In this document: positions 45,722 to 48,790 of the stretch, one piece after another
How positions within the stretch are numbered: position 1 is the first letter of the stretch
How the letters are laid out: each line of letters begins with the position of its first letter
Source: an uncultured Verrucomicrobiales bacterium
GTDB taxonomy: Bacteria > Verrucomicrobiota > Verrucomicrobiia > Verrucomicrobiales > Akkermansiaceae
Direction: 5' to 3'
Length of the DNA: 64,000 bases
Assembly (NCBI GenBank): GCA_949373085.1
Contig: CASICJ010000013.1
Location: forward strand, 1-64,000
Position numbers and translations under genes: made by a program
The notes under the pieces: model-generated
Database searches by the model: none
Seen by the model: only the letters and a program-made list of their open reading frames with translations
Told to the model about the DNA's origin: nothing

Positions 45722-47419
45722 TTAATCGATGATGTAACCCAGCGTTGCAAAAAACATTTCTTCAAAGCTTTGTTCACCCCACCTAATCGTTTTGGTTGGA
45801 TCTGGGTTATGGGGATTATAAGGAGAATTATCCCAAGCATTCCGGACATGCACCTGTGTTCCGGCAGTCAGTTTGCGTGGCTCTTTTAAGACGTAGGTCC
45901 GCTGCCAATTGAAGTTGTAATTTGGAACCGAAAGTAACATCTCGCGCTTTCCATCCGGAAATTCTGCTTCGAATTCCATAAACTTCCCCCGAAAATGCAT
46001 GTGAGGATTGATTGCATAGAGCGTGACATTCCTTCGAATAGGTAAGGTTTTCTGCTGTTTATATTCTTGAGCGCCAGCCGGAATTTGGAAGCGCCTCTGA
46101 GCAATCACCGCAGTCCTAAAAATCTTAGCAGTTGGTTCATCAGAAATATGAAGGCCAAGCTCTGTCTCATCTACTTCAGGCTTTCCAGAAGCCGTATAGT
46201 GCAGCTGGAACCGTAATTGATGGCCCTTCTTCAAAAACACAGAACTTCCTTCTGGGTAACGTTGACCCTCGGTCCCCGGCGCATACCCGGTCACCCACTG
46301 TGAGCTCCTTCGTGTTCCAGCTGGATGGGAAGTGACGATGACATGATGCAGAACTCTCGTATTCCCGGGACGGATTTCGGTCGCCTTTAGCCAAACATCC
46401 CGATCGAAAGGGTTGTCCATCGTAACATAGCGATAGTCAAAAACGCCCTCGGCCCTGACCTTCTGCGCCGGCAATGTGATGATCTTATCGGGCTTTCCAA
46501 GGAACCATTCAGGCACCTGTCTTTCCAAACCCTCCAAAGGATCCGGGCCATCACCTTTCGGACTCCCATCAGCCACCCAGCTAACAACCTTGTTCGCTTC
46601 TTCAGCGGTGAGGCTGCAATCGTTTGAAAATTCCCCAACCTCAGGATCTGCCTGCCATGGAGGCATTTGCCGGGTCATGATGACTTCTGATATCATGTCA
46701 GACCAACCCACAACCTTTCGGTAGCTACTCATGGCGAAAGGACCAAGGCCCCCTTTGGTGTGACAGGAAGTACACTTTTGCGCTAGAATTGGAGCAATAT
46801 CCCTCGCGTAGGTCAGACCTTTCGGATACTTGGGGAAAGTGATTTTGCAGCCGGGAGCCTCGGTCTCCGCTGGTTTAATTTCATTTCCCCCAAGAAGATT
46901 ATCAAGAGCATCGCGAAGGTAGTGCTTTGTCGCCACCGGCTTCGCAGCTTGGTAACTCAGGCGGTCATCGAGTGCCCCCCGATAGACAATTTTTCGACCT
47001 GCCGAACTGATCAAATAAACCTCTGCGGTTCTCTCCACACCGAGCGAGCGAGCCACAATCTGTGCCTCATCCTTAAGCACTGGCATCCTAATTTTAAACT
47101 CCTCAACTTCCTTCGAGATATCAGCCCGACTATCCTGAAGATTCGCATTAAGCATACAAAAGAGGACACCTTTATCCTGGTAGGTCGCACTCATACGATT
47201 CAATTCCGGAATACGCTTCTGAACTAAGGGGCATCCATTACCCTGCACAAAAACTACCAATCCCTTCACGCCCTTTATCTTAAGATAGTAGTCCAATTCG
47301 TGAGACTTCCCTTCATGATCAATGAGTGCAAAATTTTCGGCCCGAGAAGTGCTATTCCCAGCATTCGCATGAAATGACAAAAGGATTGAGAAGAAAAAGA
47401 TTAAATAACTATAATTCAC
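45722..47419 (-). CDS. Redoxin / cytochrome c / copper-monooxygenase-like fusion protein
   Basis: 565 residues with signal peptide (MNYSYLIFFFSILLSFHANA). N-terminal thioredoxin-like redoxin domain (~25-175) with a single active-site-type Cys C63 in VVFVQGNGCPLVQKR. Cytochrome c domain (~205-290) with C216-T-S-C-H220 and 'WSDMISEVIMTRQMPPWQAD'. C-terminal region (~300-565) resembles the type II copper ascorbate-dependent monooxygenase (PHM-like) fold: 'TRVLHHVIVTSH', 'LHYTASG', 'INPHMHFRGK' supply His ligands. The order redoxin-cyt c-PHM recurs in PVC bacteria. Reaction unknown; likely periplasmic oxidation. Transcribed divergently from the candidate selenoprotein. Confidence 0.75.
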   Translation of the reverse strand: MNYSYLIFFFSILLSFHANAGNSTSRAENFALIDHEGKSHELDYYLKIKGVKGLVVFVQGNGCPLVQKRIPELNRMSATYQDKGVLFCMLNANLQDSRADISKEVEEFKIRMPVLKDEAQIVARSLGVERTAEVYLISSAGRKIVYRGALDDRLSYQAAKPVATKHYLRDALDNLLGGNEIKPAETEAPGCKITFPKYPKGLTYARDIAPILAQKCTSCHTKGGLGPFAMSSYRKVVGWSDMISEVIMTRQMPPWQADPEVGEFSNDCSLTAEEANKVVSWVADGSPKGDGPDPLEGLERQVPEWFLGKPDKIITLPAQKVRAEGVFDYRYVTMDNPFDRDVWLKATEIRPGNTRVLHHVIVTSHPAGTRRSSQWVTGYAPGTEGQRYPEGSSVFLKKGHQLRFQLHYTASGKPEVDETELGLHISDEPTAKIFRTAVIAQRRFQIPAGAQEYKQQKTLPIRRNVTLYAINPHMHFRGKFMEFEAEFPDGKREMLLSVPNYNFNWQRTYVLKEPRKLTAGTQVHVRNAWDNSPYNPHNPDPTKTIRWGEQSFEEMFFATLGYIID

Positions 47420-47638: not shown

Positions 47639-48790
47639 ATGAAGAAATCCTTCGTCCTCTTTCTTTCCTCGCTCATGTTACTGAGCAATTTCCTTTACGG
47701 ACAGCGCTCACAGACGCCGGGACAGCGGTCCGGCGGAGTGGACACACCCCGCGGTGAACGCCCACCTAGAGGCGGTAAGCCATCACGGGGCAATCGCCCA
47801 CCAGGGCGAGGTCAACGGCCCGGAGGACAACGAGGCGGTGGCCCGCGGCCCGAAAACCTTGCTGAGTCGCCAGCCGAACTTGGCTCAGCCGGTATCGCGT
47901 GGTATCCCATCCTCAAAGACGGATTGGCTGAAGCCAGGCGCACCAATAAACCAATTCTCTTCATGGCCGTGGCCTCGCAATGCGGCGGTATTTCAGGTGT
48001 TTTCTGACCTGGCTACACCAACACGCAGAACCGTGAGTTCAGCAATCCAAAAGTCATCAAAGCCACCCGCGATTTTGTCTGCATCCGAATCGACTCTTAT
48101 GAGAGTGAAGAAGCCCAAAAAATTGTTCGCGGCTACCTCAATGGTCGCTTCGAAAATACCGCCTTTTGCCTTCTCTCTCCCGATGGAAAACAAAAGCTCA
48201 CGAGAAGCAGCCGTGGACCAAACCAAGTCCTCGGAGGCGACTTAGTGTCAGCCTTTGCAGGGATCGCTGATGACTATAGAACAAAAGGAAAAAGCGAAGC
48301 AGCAGCAGTTCCAGATTTTCCAAACTTTCGCCTCGGACTTAATGTCGCCTCCGCCGACCAACGAGTCATCATTCTTATCAGCGGTAATGAGAAAGAAATT
48401 AAAGAAGCCCGGAAATCCATTCCTGCAGTTAGTAACGACCCCGAAATTATTGGTAGATTCCACTACGACTTTGAAACTGACCCAAAGACTTGGACCGGAA
48501 TTCTTACCGGAAGCAAATCAAAATCGGGAATTAACATTATTGTCCCTGACACTTATGGTCAGAAAGGAAAAATCATAAAATCGCTTCCACTCGATATCAA
48601 AGTAGATGATCTTAAGGCAGCGCTGCTCAAGGCCAATGAGACTTTCGTGAAAACCACTGAAAAGAAAGACTATCAGAGCCACGTTCAAGAAGGACGTCGC
48701 AAAGGTATTAAGTGGACAATGCCCATGGAGTTCGGGGAAGACCGTGATGGCGACGGTAAGATTGATCAACGCGCTGGGCGGAGACGTTAA
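47639..48790 (+). CDS. Candidate selenoprotein: thioredoxin-like domain with in-frame UGA
   Basis: One frame of 383 codons is interrupted only by TGA at 48005-48007 (codon 123). Before it: signal peptide (MKKSFVLFLSSLMLLSNFLYG), an Arg/Gly/Pro-rich low-complexity stretch (~22-75) and the start of a thioredoxin-like fold ('KPILFMAVASQCGGISGVF' with C115). After it, in the same frame and with full coding character: PGYTNTQNREFSNPKVI, 'ATRDFVCIRIDSYESEEAQ', 'NTAFCLLSPDGKQKL', and a C-terminal domain to 48790. The N.EFSNPKV..A..DFV element is the usual region after a thioredoxin active site. A hairpin fitting bacterial SECIS rules follows the TGA. If UGA is Sec the product is 383 residues; if not, this is a pseudogene or a truncated 122-residue protein. 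Confidence 0.65.
48025..48043 (+). promoter_or_regulatory. SECIS-like hairpin downstream of UGA
   Basis: GCAGAAC-CGTGA-GTTCAGC folds with stem GC.A.GAAC / GTTC.A.GC (six pairs, one A.A mismatch) around a 5-base loop CGTGA. It starts 17 bases after the TGA. The loop has G in position 2 followed by U, with that G 26 bases past the UGA. This fits the published bacterial SECIS model (loop 16-37 bases from UGA, upper stem of at least 4 bp, G among the first two loop bases). Confidence 0.45.

Follow-up and report, generated by a model that had tools for sequence, protein, structure and literature searches.

The window analysed here is the whole 64,000-nucleotide stretch of contig CASICJ010000013.1 from an uncultured Verrucomicrobiales bacterium. 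Its forward strand carries a frame of 383 codons (47639-48790) in which translation finds one internal stop, the TGA at 48005-48007, which is codon 123 (Table 1). An earlier note, made from the letters alone, had described this frame as intact but for that TGA, and translation bears out the description. Near the C-terminus, the stretch GEDRDGDG is invariant in alignment A2 (55 rows) and lost in the divergent homologue L071; we take it to be a possible Ca2+-binding loop. The divergent neighbour gene (45722-47419) encodes a redoxin domain of the AhpC-TSA/ResA-like kind, followed by a weak match to cytochrome c. When the neighbourhoods of the window and 79 other loci, some of them short-flanked, were compared, clusters formed by the gene itself or by overlying frames being set aside, no widely conserved neighbour gene emerged among the loci listed; the commonest cluster, sulfatases, occurs at 16 of these 80 loci and at scattered positions.

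Table 1 Features of the candidate selenoprotein gene in the window
Feature	Position	Strand	Basis
Selenoprotein gene, 383 codons, UGA 123 predicted to be read as Sec, stop TAA	47639..48790	+	Translation; homologues in 55/192 relatives
Probable signal peptide, residues 1-21	47639..47701	+	Lys-Lys start, hydrophobic stretch, LYG end; by eye
R/G/P-rich low-complexity linker, residues 22-70	47702..47848	+	Translation; outside the conserved core of alignment A1
Thioredoxin-like domain, matched residues 85-159	47891..48115	+	Weak Thioredox_DsbH and Thioredoxin_7 matches
Cys115 codon, 8 residues before Sec	47981..47983	+	Invariant: A1 30/30, A2 55/55, 97/97 distinct sequences
UGA, predicted selenocysteine, residue 123	48005..48007	+	TGA in 97/97 distinct sequences; TGT in Cys homologue L201
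bSECIS-type hairpin	48025..48043	+	Core stem 48028-48031 with 48037-48040, loop CGTGA 48032-48036, invariant G 48033
Cys148 codon, possible alternative partner	48080..48082	+	Nearly invariant; column C78 of A1 and A2, at least 90%
C-terminal region, about residues 190-365	48206..48733	+	No Pfam/NCBIfam family above cut-off
GEDRDGDGKID, single EF-hand-like acidic loop, possible Ca2+ site	48734..48766	+	Sequence pattern

Five other TGA codons of the window (19650, 20121, 27699, 30169 and 34074) lie in frames that run open for 100 codons or more to each side. These are probably shadow frames, and their presence means that an interrupted frame proves little by itself. Since the hairpin that follows TGA 123 is also unremarkable when the window is viewed in isolation, the case for a selenoprotein rests on the relatives.

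Among 192 related genomes, 57 gave a match to the window protein, and two of these (G052 and G122) are not family members, which leaves 55 family genomes, the window's own included. The codon-123 column is TGA in all 55, each homologue has a single in-frame TGA, and the 54 other homologues are 33-91% identical to the window protein. This count omits two fragments of the C-terminal part, located at the ends of contigs, an additional N-terminal piece from G026, a G124 match that is weak and contains both TAG and TAA, and a different TGA-containing protein from G134. A scan of genome_contigs with two peptide patterns, one of which had Cys at the Sec site, gave at least 83 stretches encoding a relative, at 80 or more loci; 79 of the loci listed cover the site, with TGA in 79 of 79 and a Cys form in none. 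By title, the carriers among the matches listed belong to Verrucomicrobiota (Akkermansiaceae, Roseibacillus, Rubritalea) and to Planctomycetota (Rhodopirellula, Rubripirellula and other Pirellulaceae), the closest named genome among them being that of Akkermansiaceae bacterium UBA1518, at 93% identity. Rubritalea profundi SAORIC-165 and planctomycete K23_9 are examples of carriers that are named strains. The 55 relatives and the 79 genome_contigs loci listed were pooled into 134 members, many from the same genomes, which yield 97 distinct sequences over 240 bases at the site. A set of 387 genomes from across the window's phylum contained a clear homologue in only three, all from the window's own family and the window's genome among them, each with TGA; the remaining eight matches in this set are weak, thioredoxin-like and stop-free.

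Neither Trp nor Arg occupies codon 123 in any homologue that covers the site, and the proposal of UGA as selenocysteine (Sec), made in the earlier note, is supported by the comparison, with one Cys form, described below, as the sole departure. The same holds for its claim that coding continues past the TGA: in five pairs, dN/dS over the next 100 codons is 0.05-0.12, and by this measure the frame 3' of the TGA is under purifying selection.

A second branch of the family was found in planctomycetes. The order to which planctomycete K23_9 belongs was covered by 376 genomes, 30 of which matched. TGA forms account for 25 matches in 20 of the 376 genomes: seven carry FUPGY (U denoting the TGA-encoded position), and 18 are divergent, with WUPGK or WUPGF. 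The divergent form is also present in L071 (G045), from the window's own family. One homologue, L201 in genome G701, is near full-length and stop-free and has the codon TGT at the site (SC-AGVSGMW-C-PGK); the rest of the matches in these 376 genomes are either weak or fragments lying outside the site. L201 put an end to an initial supposition that Cys forms are wholly absent from the family. It is the only Cys form found in everything examined and lies on a distant branch. In a tree of 76 rows, the FUPGY sequences form one group with support 100/100, as do those with WUPGF (100/100); support for WUPGK is weak, and close to it, on a long branch whose exact place is unsure, lies the Cys row. In one planctomycete genome (G890:C186), WUPGF and WUPGK copies stand in tandem (L195, L205).

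The domain surrounding the TGA is thioredoxin-like. Thioredoxin_7 (PF13899) is matched at E of 0.1 or lower in 28 of 30 family members (best 1.6e-6) and Thioredox_DsbH/DUF255 (PF03190) in 17 of 30. The window protein itself scores 17.0 bits with the former and 18.4 bits with the latter against a gathering score of 27, and reaches no Pfam or NCBIfam cut-off. NCBIfam matches of the 30 members are weak (best E 0.0013) and include thioredoxin-like selenoproteins as well as unrelated models. These matches agree with the thioredoxin-like setting that the earlier note envisaged for the Sec; the site is, however, not an ordinary CxxU or UxxC but an expanded loop, C-x7-U, which in this branch takes the form FUPGY (ISGVFUPGYT). 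The Cys of the loop is Cys115, which had been placed eight residues ahead of the TGA; it is found there and is invariant in the alignments.

The Sec of this loop probably corresponds to the first Cys of CxxC, as judged by alignment. Against WCPPC proteins (L160, L162), it falls on the first Cys, and in a profile comparison with the VPGUxxT selenoproteins, it falls on the Sec of the latter with a probability of 93%. The best alignment with DsbH-type CHWC proteins opposes this placement, with Cys115 on the first Cys and Sec on the second. We prefer the first-Cys placement because Pro follows Sec as it follows Cys in CPPC. A search of solved structures gave no match for the window protein and, for the family profile, only matches at E 0.2 and 0.81; there was no match in plasmids, phages or PADLOC.

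The extent of the domain bears on the alternative that survives best, namely that UGA 123 is a regulated stop, with a 122-residue protein as the main product and readthrough that is minor or depends on selenium. As a general rule, termination is in competition with the insertion of Sec, and the first part of the frame already holds the probable signal peptide and Cys115. Such a product would, however, end within the thioredoxin-like match, and after the Sec, 25 columns are invariant in A2 and 18 in A1. We consider it improbable that the short product is the main one.

Past the TGA, the window can form the hairpin GC.GAAC-CGTGA-GTTC.GC, with four contiguous core pairs, an A.A mismatch and then two outer pairs. 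Its loop has G in the second position, and this G (48033) is the 26th base after the UGA, the geometry that the earlier note had reported. The computed energy is -5.0 kcal/mol for the 20-nt core and -6.1 kcal/mol for 45 nt, short of the limit of the published bSECIS model, which PMC13188914 gives as at most -7.5 kcal/mol; the energies of the relatives' hairpins fall on both sides of this limit. Taken alone, the window hairpin is weak. It is raised above chance by the comparative evidence, that is, the TGA column, the freezing of codons and the pairing of the core across homologues.

The freezing is local. Synonymous diversity, taken as observed over expected across the 97 distinct sequences, has block means of 0.92-0.97 upstream of the TGA and of 0.96 at codon +15 and beyond; between these blocks, it is 0.70 at codons +1 to +6 and 0.36 at codons +7 to +14, with values of 0.0, 0.0 and 0.01 at codons +7, +8 and +9. 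These last three codons form the 5' side of the stem together with the apical G, and each is frozen to one form (Gln CAG, 80/80; Asn AAC, 86/86; Ser AGT, 51/51). Judging from such codon usage, the hairpin is under RNA-level selection. The four core pairs are formed in 98% of the cells of 90 distinct segments, against 18-49% in versions slid by 1-3 columns. The loop G is invariant (90/90), all four core pairs are present in 83 of the 90 segments, and the pair 26-34 is broken in seven. Changes on both sides of the core amount to six cells: AAC...TTC is replaced by TAC...TAC in L012, L014 and L015, and L071 has a different stem. When all eight drawn pairs are considered, pairing is found in 74% of the cells, and both-sided changes are more frequent with a slide of -1 (51 cells) than in the stem as drawn (24); the outer stem is thus not conserved.

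We also applied a hairpin rule modelled on bSECISearch, which calls for G in the first two loop positions, 16-37 nt after the UGA. With the planctomycete branch added and the window included, this rule finds a hairpin in 106 of 112 distinct segments and none in the other six, so that the hairpin type is retained among relatives, as the earlier proposal implied. In 200 synonymous recodings of the same set, the mean was 36.0 and the maximum 50 of 112, and stretches 60 nt further on have a hairpin in 29 of 93 cases. The Cys homologue L201 has no hairpin by this rule. In three segments, the loop is GTT and lies 33 nt after the UGA, and in a fourth, it is CGTGC at 32 nt; folding suggests that these farther-downstream hairpins belong to the WUPGF type.

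The genes for Sec insertion, which the earlier note had singled out as a check, are present: the window's genome encodes selA (E 6.8e-145), selB (317.8 bits against a cut-off of 242.25) and a tRNA-Sec (the product of selC; 53.6 bits, anticodon tca). In the set of 192 genomes, all 55 with the family have selA or selB above the cut-off (selA in 54, selB in 49), none of the 98 without selA and selB has the family, and 39 have selA or selB without it (Fisher p 7.5e-23, kinship ignored). A search with the tRNA-Sec family at E 0.001 gave matches in nearly all relatives and in all 14 controls and, being unselective, was left out of the counting. TGA forms occur in 20 planctomycete genomes; of these, K23_9 and 16 others have selA, and G884 has selB only. 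G834 and G780 contain TGA homologues, yet have no selA or selB above the cut-off, which counts against the Sec reading; these two genomes may be incomplete. G701, the carrier of the Cys form, likewise has neither gene above the cut-off. As a rough control, 12 loci of VPGUxxT relatives were fetched and sequence was obtained from 11: eight are Sec forms, all in genomes with selA or selB, and three are Cys forms in genomes without selA and selB (G175, G070 and G181). G167, which has selA but a stop-free form, is an exception.

A changed code or a suppressor tRNA, by which UGA would be decoded as Trp or Cys, is very unlikely in view of these observations. The Cys homologue would fit UGA as Cys, an indirect point in favour of such decoding. 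Against it, eight of 30 family members themselves terminate at TGA by a script count, the tca tRNA of the window's own genome is, in the stretch examined, the tRNA-Sec, and the gene follows selA/selB and carries a hairpin that appears to be under RNA-level selection. That a nonsense mutation or sequencing error produced the TGA in a two-piece pseudogene, as a single stop in an otherwise open frame and the five other such TGAs in the window might suggest, is refuted by the homologues: 97 distinct sequences, drawn from two phyla, share this TGA, and the frame 3' of it is under purifying selection.

Our reading, drawn from comparative sequence evidence and given a probability of about 0.92, is that the gene encodes an apparently exported thioredoxin-like selenoprotein in which UGA 123 is read as Sec. 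SelB would bring Sec-tRNA(UCA) to this UGA, directed by the hairpin with its apical GU about 25 nt downstream. The Sec would then sit at the nucleophilic place, that of the first Cys of CxxC in the Thioredoxin_7 fold, followed by Pro-Gly and with no resolving Cys at +3. Instead, the Sec may be resolved as a selenenylsulfide (C-x7-U) by Cys115, which lies in an inserted loop eight residues before it. Outside the cytoplasm, the protein would be likely to reduce or isomerise disulfides, or else to reduce peroxide or sulfenic acid. In the FUPGY subfamily, Sec might even be obligatory, with no Cys form, because the C-x7-U chemistry needs selenium, an idea that we regard as rather doubtful.

Several known families resemble the one described here. 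The VPGUxxT selenoproteins (NF041382, NF041383; OS_HP5) share with it a thioredoxin-like domain, an exported appearance (by eye) and a Sec that comes after a V-P-G turn. The VPGUxxT forms seen here have a resolving Cys at +3 (UxGC; EVPGUxGC), whereas the window family has none at that position, adds two residues before the Sec (VPG-MW-U, ISG-VF-U) and has the invariant Cys at -8. NF041382 is matched by 10 of 30 members of the window family (best E 0.0021; curated score 350 bits); it is absent from the matches of the window protein at E up to 1 and has no match in the window's genome. VPGUxxT relatives do occur in the window's order, in Cys forms (L168, L174, L178) and in Sec forms (L167, L169-L173, L175, L177).

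The Trx7/PDZ selenoprotein NF041199 also combines a Thioredoxin_7-like domain with Sec and is weakly matched by 15 of 30 members (best E 0.0068); for two proteins from the other branch, the scores are 14.4 and 17 against a cut-off of 300 bits. Its motif is CxxU in the table of a 2026 review, as opposed to C-x7-U in the window family. Thioredoxin_7 and Thioredox_DsbH/DUF255 represent the same domain type, and the relatives compared use CxxC (CHWC, CPPC). The TsoB rhodanese/DsbD fusion-like model NF045694, listed in the review table as a two-Sec protein, weakly matches the thioredoxin-like stretch in 11 of 30 members, the window protein scoring 15.1 bits against a cut-off of 805. Identity with the listed GOS_B family was considered and rejected: NF041374, a GDCCVxC model of 58 positions, is unmatched in the genome.

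The earlier note had suspected an undescribed family, and the searches agree. NCBIfam gave nothing better than E 0.0013 for the window protein, the 30 members and two members of the other branch, and the accessible part of the review's table, which covers 119 families and subfamilies, contains no C-x7-U or FUPGY family. In the literature that combines the motif or the taxa with selenoproteins, a body that excludes preprints and includes few subscription papers, we recognised no earlier description; the list in supplement S9 of PMC4807772 could contain the family. This is probably a new selenoprotein family, distantly related to the VPGUxxT selenoproteins. A separate case is the 557-aa protein encoded at L072:1448-3121 (G134:C16), which has one in-frame TGA (locus position 2216; NGHPCGETUNNG), is weakly thioredoxin-like against the family profile and has no Pfam or NCBIfam match; the fold after its TGA is strong, with an energy of -15.6 kcal/mol in 51 nt. 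It is possibly another undescribed selenoprotein.

According to the deep-Sep authors, Cys homologues now seem to exist for every known selenoprotein, and their own method may miss selenoproteins that have none. The present family is nearly Sec-only, so that methods requiring Cys homologues may miss it, and standard annotation would be expected to cut the gene at the UGA. Its recognition would add a conserved, apparently exported selenoprotein family for Verrucomicrobiota and Planctomycetota, with an active site unlike the UxxC and CxxU that are common in the review's catalogue. Why Sec is kept in this family is a question that is directly testable in the carriers with named strains.
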